This document shows positions 41,000 to 56,594 of a stretch of 64,000 bases of DNA, piece by piece. Within the stretch, counting starts at the first letter, position 1; every line of letters starts with the position of its first letter. A model generated the notes under the pieces. That model had not been told where the DNA came from. It made no database searches and saw only the letters and a program-made list of their open reading frames with translations. A program made the position numbers and the translations under genes. The DNA lies in assembly GCF_900106535.1 (NCBI RefSeq), contig NZ_FNOH01000017.1, positions 62,001 through 126,000 of the forward strand, given 5' to 3'. The stretch is from Myxococcus xanthus. Lineage in GTDB: Bacteria > Myxococcota > Myxococcia > Myxococcales > Myxococcaceae.

Positions 41000-41200
41000 T
41001 CAGACGGCGCGGACGTTCTGCGCCTGCAGGCCCTTGGGGCCACGCGTGACCTCGAACTCCACCTGCTGCCCTTCCTGGAGGGTGCGGAAGCCATCCATGT
41101 TGATGGCAGTGTGGTGGCAGAACACGTCCTCACCGTTGTCCTGCGCGATGAATCCGAACCCCTTGGCGTCGTTGAACCACTTCACGGTACCGATTGCCAT
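41000..41200 (-). CDS. csp: Cold-shock protein (CspA family)
   Basis: 66 residues, full length for the family. RNP1 is K-G-F-G-F-I and RNP2 is V-F-C-H-H, followed by [17 protein letters not shown]. It begins [11 protein letters not shown]. The RNP2 sequence has His-His where V-F-V-H or V-F-A-H is usual, a mild variation. As an RNA chaperone it binds single-stranded RNA and DNA. The frame extends 23 codons upstream, but the family start at 41,200 with AAGG before it is clear. A terminator-like hairpin follows. Confidence 0.95.
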
Positions 41201-41550
41201 GTGACCTTCTTCCTTCTGCTTCGAGGCCGCCGCCAAGGGCTGCCCGATCGACGTGTGCGGAGCGGACACCGCCCCGGCCCCCTAACGACAAACTTCCTGG
41301 CGCCGCCTGTCCACCGGGCAACCGCCTTCCGGGCAAGCAGCCGTCCGCCACCGGACACTCCACTTCCCCCGCCCCTCCCGCCAGGGCGACAAGCCGTCTT
41401 CTTCCCCTCACTCCCCCCACCCCTCTCCCGGGGCCGTCTTCACACTTCTTCACCGCGCGCGGGCGTGGCCTTCATACCCGCCCTCTACCTTCCCGCTCGT
41501 CACCACCAGCGCCGCCCCCCAGGGGACGGCCTCATTGGGAGCGTGGAGCC
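41201..41550. other. Divergent intergenic region, 350 bp, pyrimidine-rich
   Basis: The space between csp (left) and the Spy-like gene (right). It should hold the csp promoter and, as is usual for the family, a long 5' leader. The plus strand from about 41,360 to 41,460 is C/T-rich. No clear promoter, operator or small gene was found by eye. Confidence 0.5.
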
Positions 41551-42117
41551 ATGTTCGGGTTTCTCTTCGGAACCGCCTGCCTCGCCGGGCTCATCTACAC
41601 GGTCCGTGGCGGACGCCACGGGTATCGCCGCGGAGGTCGCTGGAGTTCGCGCGGACGCCTGCGCTGGCTCTTCGAGCGGCTGGATACATCACCTGGCCAG
41701 GAGAAGGTCCTCCTCAAGGCCGCCGACGATGTCATGGAGGCCTTCGCCAAGGCCCGTGATGAGGTAGGCCCCAGCCGCACCGCCCTGGGCGCCGCGCTGC
41801 GCGGTGAGCACTTCGACGGCGCCGCGCTGCGTGAGCTCTTCGCTCGCCACGATGTCGCCATCGACAACGTGCGCCGCACGGTGCAGGGGTCGCTCGCCCA
41901 GGTCCACGAGGCGCTGGACCCGCGGCAGCGCCGTGAGCTCGCGGACCTCCTCGAGCACGGCTTCGGCTCCGCCTACGGCTGGCACGGAGGCCATGGCGGC
42001 TGGCACCGCCGCTGTGGCGGCCCCGGCGGCTGGCGAGGCGGCGGATTCGGCCACGGTGGCCATCGCCACGGGGACGGCCACGGCCCGTGGGGACGCGATG
42101 ACGCGCGTGGGGTGTGA
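41551..42117 (+). CDS. Spy/CpxP-like envelope stress protein with His-rich tail
   Basis: 188 residues. An N-terminal hydrophobic segment (1-18) suggests export or anchoring. Residues about 40-135 are helical, with the LTxxQ-type motifs of the Spy/CpxP family in altered form (L-D-T-S-P-G-Q-E-K and L-D-P-R-Q-R-R-E-L). The last 45 residues are rich in Gly and His (about 10 His in G-H-G-G-W-H / H-G-G-H-R-H-G-D-G-H), suited to metal binding. It heads a probable operon with a His-rich peptide, a response regulator and a sensor kinase, and is the likely periplasmic sensor/chaperone of that system. Confidence 0.75.
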   Translation: MFGFLFGTACLAGLIYTVRGGRHGYRRGGRWSSRGRLRWLFERLDTSPGQEKVLLKAADDVMEAFAKARDEVGPSRTALGAALRGEHFDGAALRELFARHDVAIDNVRRTVQGSLAQVHEALDPRQRRELADLLEHGFGSAYGWHGGHGGWHRRCGGPGGWRGGGFGHGGHRHGDGHGPWGRDDARGV

Positions 42118-42163
42118 GCCCCAAACCAACGCCCCCTTTCGTCGTCCTTGAAGGAGAGACTCC

Positions 42164-42391
42164 ATGCGCCGCCGTCTGCTCATCGTCCTGCTCGCCCTGG
42201 GCACCGTTGGAGGCTATGCCTCCGGGTTCGCCAGCGTGGCCCGCCACCGCCACCGCCATCACCTGCGCCACTGTCACCATGGCGCCTGGGAACACGGATG
42301 GAGCCCCCACGGCAGGTGGGAGCCTTCCAGCCAGCGAGGGGTGGCCCCCCCGCCGGCGACTCGCGTGTCCATCCACACGGCCTCCCCCTGA
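42164..42391 (+). CDS. Short exported His-rich peptide
   Basis: 75 residues. A clean signal peptide (M-R-R-R-L-L-I-V-L-L-A-L-G-T-V-G-G-Y-A-S-G) is followed by a segment with about ten His in 25 residues (R-H-R-H-R-H-H-L-R-H-C-H-H). After that comes a Pro/Ser-rich end. It lies 46 nt after the Spy-like gene and 15 nt before the response-regulator gene, so it is probably co-transcribed. A metal-binding role in the periplasm is inferred from composition. Confidence 0.7.
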   Translation: MRRRLLIVLLALGTVGGYASGFASVARHRHRHHLRHCHHGAWEHGWSPHGRWEPSSQRGVAPPPATRVSIHTASP

Positions 42392-42406
42392 AGTAGAAGG
42401 CGGTTC

Positions 42407-43087
42407 ATGTCCACGCGCGTCCTGCTCATCGACGACGACACCCGGATGTATGAACTGCTCGAGCAGTACCTCGGGCAGAACGGCCTCAGCGTCACCCACG
42501 CGGCGGATGGCGGACGGGGGCTGGCGGCGCTGGAGGCCAGTGCCTTCGACGCGGTGCTGCTCGACGTGATGATGCCCGGCATGGACGGCCTGGAGGTCTG
42601 CAAGCGCATCCGCGCCAAGAGCCGCATCCCCGTCATCATGCTCACCGCGAAGGGCGACGAGACGGACCGCGTGGTGGGCTTGGAGCTGGGCGCGGACGAC
42701 TACCTCCCCAAGCCCTTCAGTCCCCGAGAGCTGCTGGCGCGGCTGCGGGCCGTACTCCGCCGCTCGCAGCCCTCGGCGGTGGCGGACCGGCTAGAGTCGG
42801 GCGGCGTGTCCATCGACGTGGCCGGGCGCGAGGTACGCGTGGAGGAGCGCGCCGTGGAGTTGACGGGCCTGGAGTTCGATTTACTCGTCGCGCTGGTGCG
42901 CAGGGCCGGACGCGTCGTTCCGCGCGACGCCCTGCTGGGCGAGGCGGGCCGCAGTGACACGGTGGTGGGCGAGCGCACCGTCGACGTGCACATCTCCCAC
43001 CTGCGACAGAAGCTCGGTGACGTGGGCACCCGCCTCATCAAGACGGTGCGCGGCGTGGGCTACGTGTTCGCCAAGGAGGGTCCGTGA
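42407..43087 (+). CDS. OmpR-family response regulator (CpxR-like)
   Basis: 226 residues. Receiver domain 1-120 with acidic pocket D10/D11, phospho-acceptor D53 (V-L-L-D-V-M-M-P-G-M-D-G), the conserved Thr and Lys (K-P-F-S-P-R-E-L), then a winged-helix DNA-binding domain with the usual V-V-G-E-R-T-V-D-V-H-I-S-H-L-R-Q-K-L-G. AAGG precedes the ATG. The stop overlaps the kinase start (GTGA). It should control the metal or envelope stress genes upstream, including its own operon. Confidence 0.92.
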   Translation: MSTRVLLIDDDTRMYELLEQYLGQNGLSVTHAADGGRGLAALEASAFDAVLLDVMMPGMDGLEVCKRIRAKSRIPVIMLTAKGDETDRVVGLELGADDYLPKPFSPRELLARLRAVLRRSQPSAVADRLESGGVSIDVAGREVRVEERAVELTGLEFDLLVALVRRAGRVVPRDALLGEAGRSDTVVGERTVDVHISHLRQKLGDVGTRLIKTVRGVGYVFAKEGP

Positions 43088-44484
43088 AACGCGGCAGGCC
43101 CCGGGCGCACAAGCGCGGCTGGGACGCGTGGGGCGAGCCGCGCGAATGCGGCCCCTGGGGACACCGGCATCCGCCGCACGGTTACTGGCATATGGGCCGC
43201 CTGGGCGGCTTCGTGCGCGCCCGGCTGCACCGGCGCCTGTTCATGTGGTTCGGCCTGTCCATCCTCGCCACCGGCGCCGTGGTGGCCACGGTGATGAGCC
43301 TGGTGGGCGGAGGCACCTGGAAACAGGAAGGCGACCGCGTGCGCGCCTTCGTGGGCCACCGCTTCGAGGAGGTCTGGGACGAGCCCGCACGGCGGGACGC
43401 GCTGGTGGCCTCCATCGAGAAGGACTTGCAGGTGGGCGTGGAGTTGCGGGACGCGTCCGGCGCGATGCTGGCGCAGAGCCAGGTGCCGTGCCGGCGGCCC
43501 GAGCTCAACCTGCCCGTGGTTCGCGATGGCATCACCCTGGGCTCGGTGCGCGCTTGCTACGCCAGCTTCCGTCCGAAGAACCCGCTGCGGATGGTGCTGC
43601 CGCTGGCGCTGTCGTGCATGGTGCTGTGGCTGGCCTCGGGGAAGCTCGCGCGGCGGCTCGCACGGCCCATGGATGCGCTGGTCCGGGCCACGCGAGAGCT
43701 GGGCTCGGGCCGGCTGGACTCGCGCGCGGACGTCGCGCCGCATGTCACGGGAGAGTTCGCCGTGCTGGCGGATGCCTTCAACGACATGGCGGGGCGCATC
43801 GAGAAGCAGGTGGCGGACCAGCGCGAGCTGCTCGCCGCCGTGTCCCACGAGCTGCGCACCCCGCTGGCCCGGCTGCGCGTGCTGACGGAGCTGCTCCGCG
43901 ACGGAGGCGGCAACCCGAAGACGTTGGACCAGGTGGACCGCGAGGTGGTGGAGCTGGATGCCCTGGTGGGGGAGCTGCTGGCCAGCTCCCGGCTGGACTT
44001 CGGCCAGCTCACCCCGCGTGTCCTCGATGGCCAGACGCTGGCCACGCAGGCCCTGGAGCGCGCGGGGCTGGCGAGCTCCCTGTTGGGTATGGACGTGGAG
44101 CGCGCCGGGCTCGTGGGAGACGCGACGCTGCTGGGCCGCGCCCTGGCCAACCTCCTGGAGAATGCGCGCAAGCACGGCACCGGCGCCGAGGCACTGCGCA
44201 TCCAGGAGCGAGGCGAACACCTGGCCTTCTGCGTGGAAGACCGGGGCCCCGGGCTGCAGCCCGGCGAGGACGAGCGCATCTTCCGGCCCTTCTACCGGAG
44301 GGACCAAGGCACCGAAGCGCGCGAGGCGGGCTCCCTGGGCCTGGGTCTGGCGCTGGTCCAGCGCATCGCGCACGTCCACGGCGGAGACGTCTTCGCGGAG
44401 AACCGCCCCGGCGGCGGCGCTCGGGTGGGCTTCACCGTGCGGAAAAACGGCCCTCCGGCTTCAGAGGGCCGCCCCACCGCGTAG
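43084..44484 (+). CDS. Sensor histidine kinase with His-rich N-terminus
   Basis: 466 residues. The first 45 residues are cytoplasmic and His/Gly/Trp-rich (G-P-W-G-H-R-H-P-P-H-G-Y-W-H-M-G). Then TM1 (about 51-72), a periplasmic loop of about 95 residues, TM2 (about 169-186), HAMP, the HisKA box S-H-E-L-R-T-P-L with phospho-acceptor His 255, and the HATPase domain (N-L-L-E-N-A-R-K-H; D-R-G-P-G-L; S-L-G-L-G-L-A-L-V). The GTG start overlaps the regulator stop by 4 nt. It pairs with the regulator as a Cpx-type system. The coding end contains the terminator of the convergent gene. Confidence 0.92.
   Translation: MKRGRPRAHKRGWDAWGEPRECGPWGHRHPPHGYWHMGRLGGFVRARLHRRLFMWFGLSILATGAVVATVMSLVGGGTWKQEGDRVRAFVGHRFEEVWDEPARRDALVASIEKDLQVGVELRDASGAMLAQSQVPCRRPELNLPVVRDGITLGSVRACYASFRPKNPLRMVLPLALSCMVLWLASGKLARRLARPMDALVRATRELGSGRLDSRADVAPHVTGEFAVLADAFNDMAGRIEKQVADQRELLAAVSHELRTPLARLRVLTELLRDGGGNPKTLDQVDREVVELDALVGELLASSRLDFGQLTPRVLDGQTLATQALERAGLASSLLGMDVERAGLVGDATLLGRALANLLENARKHGTGAEALRIQERGEHLAFCVEDRGPGLQPGEDERIFRPFYRRDQGTEAREAGSLGLGLALVQRIAHVHGGDVFAENRPGGGARVGFTVRKNGPPASEGRPTA
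44442..44471 (-). terminator. Rho-independent terminator of the cupredoxin gene, inside the kinase gene
   Basis: The minus strand reads CGGCCCTC, an 8-nt loop, GAGGGCCG, TTTTTCC: a perfect 8-bp stem with a U-run, 22 nt past the stop of the convergent gene. It lies within the last codons of the kinase gene on the plus strand. Confidence 0.8.
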
Positions 44485-44492
44485 CGCGTTCG

Positions 44493-45323
44493 TCACTTCT
44501 GCGCGGACGCGTCCTCCGCGGAGAAGGAGAACGCGGCCTCGGCCGGCGCGTCGTCCGTCACCGTGACTTCGGCCGTCTTCGAGCCGAGCGTCTCGTGCCA
44601 GGCCTCCACCGTGTACGTGCCCGCGGGCAGTCCTTCGAGCGCGAAAGCACCGTCCGCGCCCGTCGTCGCGAAGTACGGGTTCTCGTTGCTGACGACGAAG
44701 GCAGACATCCACGGGTGCACGTCACACTTGAGCTTCAGCACGTCCGCGTCCGCGGGCAACGGCCGCTCCACCGGGGCGCCGGACGGAGGCTGCGCGACGT
44801 TGAACACGGGCTTCGTGCCCGCGATGCCGCGCACGTTGTGCAGCGTGCCGTCGCTGTTCTTGAACGCCACCTGCTGCCCCGCCATCGCGCCCTGCACGCG
44901 CGGGACATAGGTGCACTTCGACTGGTCCACCACCACCGGCGTGGCAGGCGCGGGAGGCGCGCCGGGCACCTTGCCCTTCACGCGCACCACCACGTTCTGG
45001 AGGTTGCCGTCCTTCACCAGGACCGACGCATCCTTCGTCGCCATGCCCTCGCACGCCGGGTCATTGCTCGCGGGGATGTCCGCGGCCTCAGGCGGAGTAC
45101 CGGTGAACTTCACCGTGCCCTTCACCACGCCCTTGCCCGCTGGAGCCACGGGCGCCGCGGCGGCACCTTCCGGCGCCTGGATGGGCGAGGCCGCGTGGGG
45201 CTCCTTCTTCGCGGCGGGCGCGGCGGCGGGTGGCGCGGCGGCCGGCTCCTCCTTCTTACAGGCAGAAAGGGTCAGCAGCCCCGCGGTCCCCAGCAGCGTC
45301 AGGCCGAGCGTGCGCAGCGTCAT
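44493..45323 (-). CDS. Cupredoxin-like lipoprotein with carboxypeptidase-regulatory-like domain
   Basis: 276 residues. A signal peptide with lipobox L-S-A-C (Cys 22) is followed by a Lys/Pro/Ala-rich linker and a cupredoxin-like domain. The likely copper ligands are His in D-G-T-L-H-N-V-R and Cys/His in L-K-C-D-V-H-P-W-M (with Met). The last 75 residues are a carboxypeptidase regulatory-like domain (D-G-A-F-A-L-E-G-L-P-A-G-T-Y-T-V-E-A-W-H). AGGAG precedes the ATG. It is on the same strand as an ABC-2 transporter and CtaB, so it is likely a periplasmic copper or electron-transfer protein for cytochrome oxidase assembly. Confidence 0.8.
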   Translation of the reverse strand: MTLRTLGLTLLGTAGLLTLSACKKEEPAAAPPAAAPAAKKEPHAASPIQAPEGAAAAPVAPAGKGVVKGTVKFTGTPPEAADIPASNDPACEGMATKDASVLVKDGNLQNVVVRVKGKVPGAPPAPATPVVVDQSKCTYVPRVQGAMAGQQVAFKNSDGTLHNVRGIAGTKPVFNVAQPPSGAPVERPLPADADVLKLKCDVHPWMSAFVVSNENPYFATTGADGAFALEGLPAGTYTVEAWHETLGSKTAEVTVTDDAPAEAAFSFSAEDASAQK

Positions 45324-45423
45324 CGTGCAATCTCCTCGGGAAGTCAGGTGATGCGTCTGCCCACCTCGTAGCGAAAGGGGCAGCGCCTGTCCAACCCACC
45401 GGGACACCGCGAACGGCCGCCGT

Positions 45424-51240: not shown

Positions 51241-51867
51241 ATGACCGACCAGCCCGCCTCTCTGTCGTTCTTCGCCCGCTTCTGGCTCGCCTGGCTGTGC
51301 TTCTGGCGCTGCCTCGTGTCCCGCGAGTTCGCGCAGGCCGTGCTGCCCACGAGCAAGGCCTATGACGCCGGCCAGCTCGCCCAGCTTCCTTCGGGCGGCC
51401 CCGCCCCCACCCCGCTTCCGAAGCAGGAGGAGGTCCGGCCCACGCCCCGAGCGCCCGAGCCGCCCCCTGCCCTGCCCCCCGAGCGCGAGCACGCCAGCGC
51501 CCTGTCCTTGCTGGGCATGCTCCAGCGAGAGGGCCGCTTCGTGGACTTCCTCCAGGAGAACGTCTCCGCCTTCTCCGACGCGGAAGTGGGCGCGGCGGCG
51601 CGCATCGTCCATGAGGGCTGCCGCAAGGTGGCCCAGACCTACCTGACGCTGGAGCGGGTGCTGCCCCAGTCGGAAGGGGACTCGGTGCCGGTGCCCGTCG
51701 GGTTCGACGCCCAGCGCATCCGCCTCACCGGCAACGTGGCGGGCCAGCCGCCCTACAACGGAATCCTGCGTCACCACGGTTGGATGACGACGGCGGTGAA
51801 GCTGCCCACCGTCAGCCCGGCCATCGACCCGCGCGTGCTTGCTCCCGCGGAGGTCGAGCTTTCCTGA
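51241..51867 (+). CDS. DUF2760 protein
   Basis: 208 residues. A hydrophobic amphipathic N-terminus (F-F-A-R-F-W-L-A-W-L-C-F-W-R-C-L) may touch the membrane. A Pro-rich linker (45-85) is followed by the DUF2760 domain (about 88-208): A-L-S-L-L-G-M-L-Q-R-E-G-R-F-V-D-F-L-Q-E, A-Y-S/F-D-A-E-V-G-A-A-A-R-x-V-H-x-G-C and L-R-H-H-G-W. The domain is known only in association with Hsp70-like genes. It is followed, 61 bp later, by two Hsp70 genes on the same strand, so a shared chaperone task is likely. Confidence 0.8.
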   Translation: MTDQPASLSFFARFWLAWLCFWRCLVSREFAQAVLPTSKAYDAGQLAQLPSGGPAPTPLPKQEEVRPTPRAPEPPPALPPEREHASALSLLGMLQREGRFVDFLQENVSAFSDAEVGAAARIVHEGCRKVAQTYLTLERVLPQSEGDSVPVPVGFDAQRIRLTGNVAGQPPYNGILRHHGWMTTAVKLPTVSPAIDPRVLAPAEVELS

Positions 51868-51928
51868 GCCGGCCACCACGACCTCACAGCGCGAACAAAC
51901 CCGCGTCTTCCAGGAGTTCTCGTCCGAT

Positions 51929-53791
51929 ATGGCCCGCTATTCCATTGGCATCGACCTGGGCACTACGCACTCCGCAGCGTCCTACTTCAATCTGGAGGAG
52001 GGCAAGCCCCGCGGCGGCGCGCAGTCCATGCTGCCCGTCCCCCAGTTGACCGCGCCCGGCACCGTCGAGGCCCGCCCGCTGCTCCCCTCCTTCCTCTATC
52101 TCCCCTCCGAGCAGGAGTTCCCCGCCGGCAGCCTGGCGCTGCCGTGGAAGCCGGAGGCCAGCACCCTGATGGGTGAGTTCGCCCGCACGCACGGCGCCAA
52201 GGTGCCCACGCGGCTGGTGGCCTCCGCCAAGAGCTGGCTGTCCCACCCCGGCGTGGACCGGCGCGCGGCGCTGCTGCCGTGGCAGGCCCCCGAGGAGGTG
52301 CAACGGGTGTCGCCGCTAGACGCCTCCGCGCGCTACCTCCGCCACCTCAAGGACGCGTGGGACCACACCTTCGCCCGCGAGCGCGAGGAGTCCGACAACG
52401 CCCTGGCCGAACAGGACGTCATCATCACCGTCCCCGCCTCCTTCGACGCGGCGGCGCGCGACCTGACGCTGGAGGCCGCCAAGGCCGCGGGCATCCCCAA
52501 CATCACCCTGCTGGAGGAGCCCCAGGCCGCGCTCTACGCGTGGCTGGAGGCCATGGGGGAGAACTTCCGCAAGCAGGTGCAGCCCGGCGCGGTCATCCTC
52601 GTGGTGGACGTGGGCGGCGGCACCTCCGACTTCTCCGTCATCACCGTGCGCGACAACGCCGGTGACCTGGAGCTGCTCCGCGTGGCCGTGGGCGACCACA
52701 TCCTGCTGGGCGGCGACAACATGGACCTGGCGCTGGCGCACACGCTGAACCAGCGCATGGCGGCCGAGGGCAAGAAGCTGGACGCCTGGCAATTCAACGC
52801 CCTCACCCATGGCTGCCGCCAGGCGAAGGAGGCGCTCTACGCCGACCCGTCCATGGAGCGCGCACCCATCTCCATCCCCGGCCGGGGGTCGTCGCTCATC
52901 GGCGGCACGCTGCGCACGGAGCTGACGCGCGAGGAGCTGGACCGCGTCCTCACCGACGGCTTCTTCCCCGTGACGCCCGTCACCGAGCTGCCGCGCACCG
53001 CGCGCCGCACCGGCCTGGCGCAGATGGCGCTGCCCTACGCCCAGGACGCCGGGGTATCCCGTCACCTGGCCGCCTTCCTCACCCGGCAGGCGCAGGCGCT
53101 CGCGTCCAGCCCGGACGCGCCGGTGGACGTCAGCGGCAAGGCCTTCCTCCACCCCACGGCGGTGCTCTTCAACGGCGGCGTCTTCAAGGCCGGCCCGCTG
53201 AAGGCGCGCGTCATGGAGGTGATCAACGGCTGGCTCACGGCGGATGGCGGAGCGCCCGCCGAGGCGCTGGAGGGCGCGGACCTGGACCTCGCGGTGGCGC
53301 GCGGCGCCGCCTATTATGGTTGGGTGCGCCAGGGCCACGGCCTGCGCATCCGCGGCGGCACGGCCCGCGCCTACTACGTGGGCGTGGAGACGGCGATGCC
53401 CGCGGTGCCCGGCATGGAGCCGCCCGTGAAGGCGCTCTGCGTGGCCCCCTTCGGCATGGAGGAAGGCACGCAGGCGGACGTCCCGCCCCAGGAGTTCGGG
53501 CTCGTCACCGGTGAGCCCACCCGCTTCCGCTTCTTCTCCTCTTCCCTGCGGCGCGACGACAAGGTGGGCGTCATGCTGGAGGACGTCGACACCGAGCTGG
53601 CCAGCGGCGGGCTGGAGGAGCTGGCTCCCATCGAGACGACCATGCCCGGTCAGCCCTCCGTCTTCAGCGACCTGACGCCCGTCAACCTCCAGGCGGCGGT
53701 GACGGAGGTGGGGACGCTGGAGCTCCGGTGCCTGGAGAAGGATGGCCCCGGGCGCTGGAAGCTGGAACTCAACGTCCGCATGAAGGAGTAG
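51929..53791 (+). CDS. Hsp70-family protein 1
   Basis: 620 residues. The nucleotide-binding domain is complete: phosphate 1 I-D-L-G-T-T-H-S-A, connect/phosphate 2 V-V-D-V-G-G-G-T-S-D-F, G-G-D-N-M-D-L-A-L and the adenosine part L-F-N-G-G-V-F-K. A beta-type substrate region follows, but no C-terminal helical lid is clear. It lacks the E-E-V-D end and does not match DnaK closely. It is likely ATP-dependent and used with the partner below. No DnaJ or GrpE gene is in the window. An upstream ATG at 51,839 in this frame overlaps the DUF2760 gene and looks unused. Confidence 0.9.
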   Translation: MARYSIGIDLGTTHSAASYFNLEEGKPRGGAQSMLPVPQLTAPGTVEARPLLPSFLYLPSEQEFPAGSLALPWKPEASTLMGEFARTHGAKVPTRLVASAKSWLSHPGVDRRAALLPWQAPEEVQRVSPLDASARYLRHLKDAWDHTFAREREESDNALAEQDVIITVPASFDAAARDLTLEAAKAAGIPNITLLEEPQAALYAWLEAMGENFRKQVQPGAVILVVDVGGGTSDFSVITVRDNAGDLELLRVAVGDHILLGGDNMDLALAHTLNQRMAAEGKKLDAWQFNALTHGCRQAKEALYADPSMERAPISIPGRGSSLIGGTLRTELTREELDRVLTDGFFPVTPVTELPRTARRTGLAQMALPYAQDAGVSRHLAAFLTRQAQALASSPDAPVDVSGKAFLHPTAVLFNGGVFKAGPLKARVMEVINGWLTADGGAPAEALEGADLDLAVARGAAYYGWVRQGHGLRIRGGTARAYYVGVETAMPAVPGMEPPVKALCVAPFGMEEGTQADVPPQEFGLVTGEPTRFRFFSSSLRRDDKVGVMLEDVDTELASGGLEELAPIETTMPGQPSVFSDLTPVNLQAAVTEVGTLELRCLEKDGPGRWKLELNVRMKE

Positions 53792-53816
53792 AAAGCCATC
53801 CGTCAATCGGAGGCGT

Positions 53817-56594
53817 ATGCGAATCGTTGGCATCGACCTGGGCACCACCCATTGCGCCGTGGCATCCGTGGACCCCTCGCGGGGCGCGGGTGCCCCCGTG
53901 GAGGACTTCGCCCTTCCGCAGCTCGTCCGTCAGGGCGAGGTGGCCCCGCGGGCCCTGTTGCCCTCCACCGTGTACGTGCCCGCCGGCCACGAGCTGGCGG
54001 AGGGTTCGCTCACGCTGCCCTGGGGGGATGACGGCGGCCCGTGGGTGGTGGGTGAGCTGGCCCGCTGGCAGGGCGCGCGCGTGCCGGGGCGGCTGGTAGC
54101 CAGCGCCAAGAGCTGGCTGTGCCACCCGGGCGTGGACCGCTCCGCACCCATCCTCCCCTGGGGTGCGCCCGCGGACGTCCAGAAGCTGTCCCCGGTGGAC
54201 GCCAGCGCCCTGCTGCTGACGCACATGGCTCGCGCATGGGATTACGCGCACCCGGACGCGCCCCTGTCGAAGCAGGAGGTGGTGATTACCGTCCCCGCCT
54301 CCTTCGACGAAGCGGCCCGCGCCCTCACGGTGAGCGCGGCGCGCAAGGCCGGCCTGGAGAAGTTCACCCTCCTGGAGGAGCCCCAAGCGGCCTTCTACGA
54401 CTACACCGCGCGCCACCGGGCGGACCTGGAGCAGACGCTCTCCAACGTCCGGCTGGTGCTGGTGGTGGACGTGGGCGGCGGCACCACGGACTTCACGCTG
54501 GTGCATGCGGGCCTGTCGCCCGAAGGCCCCATGCTGCGGCGACTGGCCGTGGGCGACCACCTGATGCTGGGCGGCGACAACATGGACGCCGCGCTCGCGC
54601 GCCGGGTGGAGGAGAAGCTCTTCACGGACGGCCGCCGCCTGTCCGCCACGCAGTGGACGCAGGCCATCCAGGCCGCGCGCACCGCGAAGGAGGCGCTGCT
54701 CGGTCTCGCCCCGCCGGAGAAGCACGGCGTGTCGCTGGTGAGTGGCGGCAGCAAGCTGCTGGGCGGCACGTTGTCCACGGAGCTGACGCGCGACGAGGCG
54801 CAGGCGCTGGTGCTGGACGGCTTCTTCCCCCTCACCACCCCCGCTGACAGGCCACGCCGCGCCGCGCGAATGGCGCTTCAGGAGCTGGGCCTGCCCTACG
54901 TGCAGGACGCGGCGGTGACGCGGCACATGGCGGCCTTCCTCGCGCAGCACGCGGCGGCGGGCTTCGCGGCGCTGGGCGAGACGGCGCCAGCGGAGGGCGC
55001 CCTGCCCCGGCCGGACGCCATCCTGCTCAACGGCGGCGTGTTCAACTCGCCCCAGATTTCCGAGCGGCTGGTGGAGGCCCTCTCCGCATGGTGGCCGAAC
55101 GCGCCGCGCATTCCCCTGCTGCGGCACGAGTCCCTGGAGCTCGCGGTGGCCCGGGGCGCCGCGTACTACGGCCTGGTGCGGCGCGGTCACGGCCTGCGCA
55201 TTGGTGGCGGCGCGGCGCGTGCCTACTACGTGGGCCTGCAGCGCGCGGCGGACAGCGCCGAGCAACCCGCGCTGTGCCTCATCCCCCGCGGCTTCGAGGA
55301 AGGCCAGAAGGTCGACCTGGGCGAGCGACCCTTCTCGCTCACCCTGGGCCGGCCGGTGCAGTTCCAGCTCTACTCCACCACCAGCGACCGCATCGACAAG
55401 CCCGGCGATTTGGTGCCGCTGGCGGAGGACCTCAAGCCGCTGCCGCCCATCCACACGCTGCTCAAGGGCGCCTCCAACAAGGTGGCGGAGGTGCCCGTGC
55501 ACCTCCAGGCGGCGCTGACGGAGATTGGCACCCTGGAGCTGTACTGCGTGTCCAACGTCGCGGACGAGCGGTGGCGCCTGGAGTTCGAGCTGCGCGGCAC
55601 CGGCGGCTCGCACGAGCTGACGGTCACCGAGTCCATGCCCGCGCGCTTCGTCGAGGCGAAGGACAACATCGAGCGCGTCTACGGCAACAAGCCGCTGCCC
55701 ATTGGCCCCAAGGACGTGAAGCAGCTCGGGCGCACGCTGGAGAAGGCCCTGGGCTCGCGTGAGACGTGGCGCGTCCCGGTGCTGCGGGAGATGTGGAGCA
55801 CCCTCTTCGCGGGCGCGAGCAAGCGCCGGCGCTCGGAGGACCACGAGCGTGTCTTCTACAGCCTCACCGGCTTCAGCCTACGGCCGGGCTTCGGCTACCC
55901 GCTGGACGGCTGGCGCGCGGAGCAGACCTTCGGCCTGTTCGACGCGCTGGTGCAGCACCACACGGACAAGGCGGTATGGACGGAGTTCTGGGTGATGTGG
56001 CGCCGCATCGCGGGCGGACTGGACGAGGCGCGGCAGCAGAAGCTGTACGCGTACCTCCAGCCCCACCTGGCGCGGAAGGTGCCACCGGACGCGCCGCCGC
56101 CGGGGAAGCTCAAGGGCATCCAGCCCGAGGGCCTGGAGGAGATGGTCCGCACGGCGGCCTCGCTGGAGCACCTGCAACCGGGTGACAAGGCGGAGCTGGG
56201 CCGGTGGATTGCCGCGAGGCTGAAGGCCGAGGCGAAGTCCGGCGGACCGTGGGCCTGGTCCCTGGGGCGGCTGGGCGCGCGCGTGCCCCTATACGGCAGC
56301 AGCCACAAGGTGGTGGACGTGGACACGGCCGAGGCCTGGCTCACGCTGCTGCTGGAGTTGGACCTGCGGAAGATTGACGGCGCGTCCTTCGCGGCGGCGC
56401 AGCTCGCGCGGCTCACGGGAGACCGCACTCGCGATCTGGACCCGGACCTGCGCGAGCGCACGGCCCAGGCCCTGCTGGCGGCGAAGGCCTCCGAGACCTG
56501 GGTGCGAATGGTGCGCGAAGTCGTGGCGCTGGAAGCCGCAGACGAGGCTCGCGCGCTCGGGGATACGCTCCCCGCCGGTCTGCGGCTGTCGTAG
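53817..56594 (+). CDS. Hsp70-family protein 2 with C-terminal DUF3731-like domain
   Basis: 925 residues. The ATPase motifs are I-D-L-G-T-T-H-C-A, V-V-D-V-G-G-G-T-T-D-F, G-G-D-N-M-D-A-A-L and L-L-N-G-G-V-F-N. After the beta domain (about 440-600), a helical extension of about 320 residues follows, which fits DUF3731: K-R-R-R-S-E-D-H-E-R-V-F-Y-S-L-T-G-F, G-F-G-Y-P-L-D-G-W-R, W-T-E-F-W-V-M-W-R-R-I-A-G-G-L and L-G-R-L-G-A-R-V-P-L-Y-G. GGAGG lies close before the ATG, 25 nt after the first Hsp70 gene, so the two are co-transcribed. The client protein is unknown. Confidence 0.9.
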   Translation: MRIVGIDLGTTHCAVASVDPSRGAGAPVEDFALPQLVRQGEVAPRALLPSTVYVPAGHELAEGSLTLPWGDDGGPWVVGELARWQGARVPGRLVASAKSWLCHPGVDRSAPILPWGAPADVQKLSPVDASALLLTHMARAWDYAHPDAPLSKQEVVITVPASFDEAARALTVSAARKAGLEKFTLLEEPQAAFYDYTARHRADLEQTLSNVRLVLVVDVGGGTTDFTLVHAGLSPEGPMLRRLAVGDHLMLGGDNMDAALARRVEEKLFTDGRRLSATQWTQAIQAARTAKEALLGLAPPEKHGVSLVSGGSKLLGGTLSTELTRDEAQALVLDGFFPLTTPADRPRRAARMALQELGLPYVQDAAVTRHMAAFLAQHAAAGFAALGETAPAEGALPRPDAILLNGGVFNSPQISERLVEALSAWWPNAPRIPLLRHESLELAVARGAAYYGLVRRGHGLRIGGGAARAYYVGLQRAADSAEQPALCLIPRGFEEGQKVDLGERPFSLTLGRPVQFQLYSTTSDRIDKPGDLVPLAEDLKPLPPIHTLLKGASNKVAEVPVHLQAALTEIGTLELYCVSNVADERWRLEFELRGTGGSHELTVTESMPARFVEAKDNIERVYGNKPLPIGPKDVKQLGRTLEKALGSRETWRVPVLREMWSTLFAGASKRRRSEDHERVFYSLTGFSLRPGFGYPLDGWRAEQTFGLFDALVQHHTDKAVWTEFWVMWRRIAGGLDEARQQKLYAYLQPHLARKVPPDAPPPGKLKGIQPEGLEEMVRTAASLEHLQPGDKAELGRWIAARLKAEAKSGGPWAWSLGRLGARVPLYGSSHKVVDVDTAEAWLTLLLELDLRKIDGASFAAAQLARLTGDRTRDLDPDLRERTAQALLAAKASETWVRMVREVVALEAADEARALGDTLPAGLRLS

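Follow-up and report, generated by a model that had tools for sequence, protein, structure and literature searches.

A candidate Cpx/Bae-like envelope-stress operon of the Myxococcaceae with an unusual Spy-type protein and histidine-rich tails

The operon and its described counterparts

In Escherichia coli, the Cpx two-component system controls cpxP and spy, and CpxP inhibits the sensor kinase CpxA (PMC6737893). Here we describe a four-gene operon, encoding a Spy/CpxP-type protein (Spy1), a small membrane protein, a response regulator and a sensor kinase, within 64,000 nucleotides of Myxococcus xanthus DNA (contig NZ_FNOH01000017.1, positions 62,001 to 126,000; this whole stretch is hereafter the window, and coordinates follow its numbering). 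We lean, though only somewhat, towards reading this operon as a Cpx/Bae-like envelope-stress two-component system of the Myxococcaceae that acts through the mechanism proposed below, and its probable role is to monitor the cell envelope, not to detoxify metals. Its unusual features appear to be a Spy protein with a predicted inverted membrane anchor, a conserved small membrane protein, and a His-rich kinase tail conserved in composition.

Parts of this arrangement recur in other described systems. ZraP is a periplasmic Metal_resist-family protein tied to the ZraSR pair, in which ZraR is an NtrC-type sigma-54 regulator; CnrX works in the periplasm with an anti-sigma/sigma pair; and MgrB and SafA are small membrane regulators of kinases. 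SilE and PcoE, both periplasmic and disordered, have all ten of their His positions in common (PMC5008109).

The M. xanthus operon resembles CpxP-CpxRA in its OmpR-type regulator, its HAMP/HisKA kinase, its Spy-type accessory protein and the presence of a Spy protein among its putative targets. It departs from that system in several respects: Spy1 is the first gene of a single operon with the regulator and kinase instead of being divergent from them, its domain is predicted to be cytoplasmic, a small membrane protein is added, the promoter carries a TTCAC-repeat box, and the kinase, which has a long basic His-rich N-terminal tail, scores like the regulator below the CpxA and CpxR cut-offs. As an envelope-stress kinase/regulator pair with a secreted Spy chaperone as a putative target, it would also resemble BaeSR; however, we know of no Spy-type or small protein gene in the bae operon, and the BaeS and BaeR cut-offs are likewise missed. 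Like ZraP, Spy1 is a Metal_resist-family accessory protein tied to a two-component system, but the regulator here is of OmpR type. With CnrX and NccX, Spy1 shares a Pfam Metal_resist core and a membrane anchor, and these are the best, albeit non-significant, Foldseek matches of its predicted model; unlike them, it accompanies a kinase/regulator pair, and its anchor is predicted to be inverted. The small protein recalls SilE and PcoE as a His-containing protein encoded beside a two-component pair, yet its His residues are not conserved and its conserved part is a membrane helix. In layout it can be likened to MgrB and SafA, as a one-helix protein paired with a sensor kinase for which feedback is possible.

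All four genes lie on the forward strand. Spy1 (41551..42117, 188 residues) consists of an uncharged N-terminal hydrophobic segment, a linker rich in His, Arg, Gly and Trp, a helical core, and a C-terminal tail rich in His, Gly and Cys. It is followed by the small membrane protein (42164..42391, 75 residues), with an Arg-rich start, one hydrophobic helix and a His-rich stretch containing Cys37; by the OmpR-family regulator (42407..43087, 226 residues), with receiver and Trans_reg_C domains in Pfam; and by the kinase (43084..44484, 466 residues, GTG start), with HAMP, HisKA and HATPase domains in Pfam. In order, the kinase comprises a basic His-rich cytoplasmic N-terminal tail (residues 1-49, 43084..43230, with six His and a net positive charge), a first transmembrane helix (TM1), a small periplasmic domain, a second transmembrane helix, HAMP, HisKA and HATPase. 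The intergenic distances of 46, 15 and -4 nt are exactly those that an earlier reading of the DNA letters (hereafter the sequence-only reading) had given for four tightly packed genes. The gene starts appear credible: that of Spy1 because many relatives carry a Shine-Dalgarno-like GGAG or AAGGAG 5′ of it, and that of the kinase because in most relatives it overlaps or abuts the regulator stop (by 4 nt in the window; distances of -4 in 41 relatives, -1 in 16, and at most 10 nt in most others).

Family matches support the earlier proposal of a two-component operon of Cpx-like kind that includes a Spy/CpxP-type protein. Among NCBIfam models the kinase matches CpxA best, with RstB and BaeS also among its top matches, all under cut-off; it scores 156.7 of 486 bits against the CpxA model, and the regulator 184.5 of 341 bits against CpxR, both short of the equivalog cut-offs. 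The heavy-metal models TIGR01386/TIGR01387 are missed as well (kinase 119.9 of 292.6 bits, regulator 181.6 of 279.2). Modelling gives the periplasmic domain of the kinase (about 90 residues) the fold of a small PAS-like sensor similar to those of WalK, CitA and CusS, a fold that is very common. Within this domain, Cys136 and Cys158 are nearly invariant in the alignment and likely form an intramolecular disulfide, since both are lost together at loci L130 and L136.

We read 81 Myxococcaceae loci, comprising the window and 80 relatives. Spy1 is present in 89 of 96 Myxococcaceae genomes, mostly as a single copy, and the order Spy1-regulator-kinase is kept in 76 of the 81 loci; of the remaining five, four run into contig ends, and at the fifth (L125) the regulator and kinase were not found within 4.5 kb of Spy1. 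The regulator is 70-100% identical across the family. The small gene is present in 71 relatives and missing from five loci (L107, L108, L110, L111 and L134) where the gap between Spy1 and the regulator is 9-40 nt. In other families of the phylum, related operons with the small gene occur at five loci (L160 to L164), and another (L165) has a partial regulator and lacks the small gene. More distant Spy-regulator-kinase operons (L172, L173 and L175, the regulator of L173 being a partial match only) have an ordinary signal peptide on Spy and neither the small gene nor a His-rich tail. Outside the phylum, a shallow first look, by which absence is not proven, gave two weak matches to the same system among 398 genomes and none among 192; the one that was readable (L277) has an N-in anchor and was rejected as a different protein. 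To this extent, the system appears specific to the Myxococcota. Separately, four stand-alone Spy-like genes (L166, L168, L170 and L171) have the uncharged N-terminus and basic flank of Spy1, with no adjoining regulator or kinase found. Our search of open-licence papers yielded none on a His-rich kinase with CpxP, on MXAN with a heavy metal sensor, or on the operon in Myxococcus, and no description of the small membrane protein.

A direct-repeat box shared between promoters

Upstream of Spy1 lies a direct-repeat box, CTTCACACTTCTTCAC (41438..41453), with TTCAC repeats 10 bp apart, which is a putative response-regulator site. It is found upstream of Spy1 in 78 of the 79 loci scanned. A third repeat, CTTCATA in the window (41470..41476) and CTTCACA in most relatives, stands 32 or 33 bp past the first TTC in 75 of these 78, and in 70 a -10-like element (TACCTT at 41486..41491, 48 nt past the box start; TACcTT among relatives) follows that TTC at an offset of 47-48 nt. 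All three elements are on the forward strand.

Scanning the whole genome with the box in its IUPAC (International Union of Pure and Applied Chemistry) form gave four exact matches against none in a reversed control, and six sites against one when up to one mismatch was allowed. At two mismatches, 29 sites against 22 in the control amount to background, and weaker sites are not separable from it. One exact match (G000:C13:256307, found also in genomes G014, G016 and G064) lies antisense inside ribosomal-protein genes and is explained by coding conservation, and a one-mismatch site (C12:186905), which lies close to a coding sequence's start codon, was discarded.

Beyond the operon's own promoter, the box occurs upstream of a second Spy gene (Spy2), followed by an AstE/AspA-like (deacylase) gene, at L210 (G000:C5:61630), L218 and L225. 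By coordinates it also precedes a second Spy in G077, G064, G014, G041 and G060, so that the box stands ahead of a second Spy in eight genomes of five genera. Spy2 begins with MK(K/R), an ordinary export signal, and matches the NCBIfam periplasmic chaperone Spy at E 1.5e-6, far below the model cut-off. The box is further found, in several genera, upstream of a secreted, envelope-like protein that reads as outer-membrane-like from its sequence only and has no family match (L211, L215 and L229), and upstream of a membrane calcineurin-like phosphoesterase followed by a TetR gene, with one mismatch at L213 and exactly at four other loci from several genera (L219, L222, L224 and L226). This phosphoesterase has weak similarity to YaeI/LpxG, below the model cut-offs. 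Every promoter class checked by eye has a TA-rich -10-like element about 48-49 nt past the box start. No metal-efflux or metal-binding gene was found at promoters carrying the box with at most one mismatch. Because the box is present at the operon's own promoter, we infer that the operon's own regulator binds it.

Two accessory membrane proteins

By its sequence, Spy1 is a clear member of the Spy/CpxP/Metal_resist superfamily. It matches Pfam PF13801 (the Metal_resist/LTXXQ family) at E 8.5e-11, with 42.5 bits against a gathering score of 29.2, and 22 of 22 relatives match the same family at E ≤ 0.01. The predicted model is helical, with a predicted local distance difference test (pLDDT) score of 73-85 over most of the core and 62-68 at the core ends. 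Foldseek ranked CnrX first at a non-significant E of 0.21, and fold comparison gave a Z of 7.5 to VIA and 6.8 to Spy, within noise for helical proteins. Among solved structures, phmmer found no close sequence match, and a profile search returned weak Spy matches (E 0.1). The sole invariant His of the core, H119, is part of an HxxL motif common to the phylum's ordinary secreted Spy proteins.

The sequence-only reading had placed His tracts on both sides of the inner membrane, assuming a periplasmic Spy domain. The charges of Spy1, whose N-terminus reads MFGFLFGTACLAGLIYTVRGGR, predict otherwise. Lys and Arg are absent from residues 1-15 in 78 of 79 relatives, and the net charge of residues 16-35 averages +5 (at least +3); by the positive-inside rule, the C-terminal domain is therefore predicted to face the cytoplasm (C-in), and a periplasmic location through a Sec signal peptide or an N-in anchor disagrees with this charge prediction. 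Every relative in the superfamily known to us, Spy, CpxP, ZraP and CnrX among them, acts in the periplasm. With an acidic Spy1 core (mean net charge -4) and a basic kinase tail (median +9), contact between the two in the cytoplasm is conceivable.

In the small membrane protein, G13, G17, S20 and C37 are invariant in 71 of 71 relatives, and [YF]18 and [GA]21 are also conserved, which gives a transmembrane motif of GxxxGxxS[GA]. Its His content ranges from 0 to 10 (mostly 3-5, and 0-1 in several genera), with only two columns holding His in at least 50% of relatives. Such conservation is what a packing membrane helix would show, unlike a metal sponge such as SilE. The window's protein does carry nine His in 25 residues, in line with the roughly ten counted earlier, but the accompanying idea of a metal buffer is not supported, because the His content varies while the helix motif and the single Cys are invariant. 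A cleaved metal-buffer peptide was rejected as the main reading on the same grounds, and an AXA cleavage-like site is present in only 43 of the 71. In some genera (L106, L109, L114-L124 and others), the small protein reaches 100-174 residues through a Pro/Ala/Val-rich tail, and the gap between Spy1 and the regulator is widened to 370-840 nt.

Histidine-rich tails and the signal

In the window, the Spy1 C-terminal tail holds seven His in 48 residues (eight from residue 136 on), an enrichment as claimed, though slightly short of the count of about ten first given. The kinase N-terminus has four His in GHRHPPHGYWH and six in its first 49 residues. With an assumed His frequency of 2.2%, binomial P values are 8e-5 for the Spy1 C-tail, 7e-4 for the kinase N-terminus and 2e-9 for the small protein. 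The regulator, in agreement with the sequence-only reading, is not rich in His.

Across relatives, the His bias of the kinase and Spy1 tails is real, and what is conserved is the composition rather than individual sites: positions turn over while the enrichment persists, whereas the tract of the small protein is largely not kept. The kinase tail ahead of TM1 varies from 16 to 210 residues, with a median His content of 14% and at least 5% in 70 of 75 relatives (window included). Pooled, its His content is 12.3%, whereas base usage per codon position predicts 6.9% and the kinase core holds 2.0%; the observed and predicted values are 14.8% and 5.9% for the Spy1 linker and 11.8% and 5.3% for the Spy1 C-tail. 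Genus means, which control for relatedness among genomes in part only, reach at least 8% in 17 of 19 genera for the kinase tail, 14 of 17 for the linker and 13 of 16 for the C-tail. The kinase is unusual in this respect: in 13 other kinases of the same genome, the segments ahead of the transmembrane helix contain 2.7% His when pooled and 7.9% at most. For Cys, the kinase tail shows no enrichment over base composition (1.5% against 3.1% expected). In one Myxococcus subclade (L079-L082), the cytoplasmic kinase tail contains CxxCxxxC-like clusters (ECESCGPQC, ECEVCGPDC), and a metal site is possible there.

In the mechanism that we propose, an envelope signal would alter the kinase by way of both the PAS-like domain in the periplasm and the basic, His-rich tail in the cytoplasm. 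Once altered, the kinase would phosphorylate the OmpR-type regulator, which would bind the TTCAC direct repeat and activate its own operon, Spy2, the envelope-like protein and the membrane phosphoesterase. The kinase may also have two feedback accessory subunits, Spy1 and the small membrane protein. The latter would act through its GxxxG helix beside the kinase membrane helices; the former would be an adaptor anchored in the membrane, with an acidic helical core that meets the basic kinase tail on the cytoplasmic side. Instead of forming a specific metal site, the His-rich tails probably tune this Spy1-kinase contact, whether by protonation or by binding Zn, Ni or Cu loosely; such tuning by metal or pH is possible.

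True sensing of Zn, Ni or Cu is an alternative that we take seriously but do not expect to hold. Metal would then be bound by both sets of His tails, in Spy1 and in the kinase, and by the small protein's His/Cys stretch, and Spy1 would act like CnrX or ZraP. The persistence of His enrichment in three segments across 14-19 genera would suit this alternative, as would Cys clusters such as ECESCGPQC in some kinase tails, the invariant Cys of the small protein, the Pfam label of the Spy1 family ("Heavy-metal resistance") and the Foldseek rank of the metal sensor CnrX, at E 0.21. However, individual His sites are not conserved, several genera retain at most one His in the small protein, H119 belongs to a general Spy motif, and Cys in the kinase tail falls below base expectation. 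The dedicated zinc, nickel or copper system first suggested is so far unsupported also by its putative targets, as the genes sharing the box at up to one mismatch include neither an efflux pump nor a metal-binding effector, and by the missed heavy-metal cut-offs.

A further arrangement, in which the inverted Spy1 adaptor and the GxxxG/Cys small protein would clamp the disordered, basic and His-rich kinase tail, and metal or pH would gate the envelope-stress kinase from inside by acting on this fast-evolving tail of conserved composition, strikes us as rather doubtful. It is unlikely that the His/Arg/Trp/Gly-rich tails act as sensors of pH or lipids, with His protonation altering their binding to acidic lipids and thereby the kinase; in Spy1 as in the kinase, the tails adjoin a membrane segment and combine a strongly basic charge with abundant Arg, Gly, His, Pro and Trp, but this composition alone is indistinguishable from that of metal binding. 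That the tails are low-complexity sequence under no constraint in a high-GC genome, their His without function, would suit their hypervariable sequence and length and their unconserved sites, but is very unlikely given that His stands at about twice base expectation in three separate segments, recurs in most genera despite turnover and shows no such bias in the equivalent segments of the genome's other kinases.

Several points weigh against the envelope-stress system that we favor. A paralogous regulator could read the box instead, and the putative regulon is small, with four promoter classes only. Spy1 has a hydrophobic segment of only 15-17 residues, and the positive-inside rule, though strong, is not absolute. 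Finally, a purely envelope-stress model does not require the His enrichment, which it accounts for by assumption only.

Three other features of the window were noted. A cold-shock protein gene (41000-41269, reverse strand) stands upstream and divergent from it, as it does at L134; a lipoprotein-like protein with a carboxypeptidase-regulatory domain (44493-45407, reverse strand) is convergent with it; and two Hsp70-like genes lie in tandem at 51839-56594 on the forward strand.

In this reading, the operon would be the Cpx-like response to envelope stress so far missing from myxobacteria, which are predators whose envelopes are unusual, and it would supply a ready-made reporter promoter and a short list of targets for studying myxobacterial envelope stress. 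Spy1, if it does face the cytoplasm, would be the first such member of its superfamily known to us. Furthermore, the kinase tail offers a clean natural example of a signalling tail kept by amino-acid composition, not by sequence, over long evolution.

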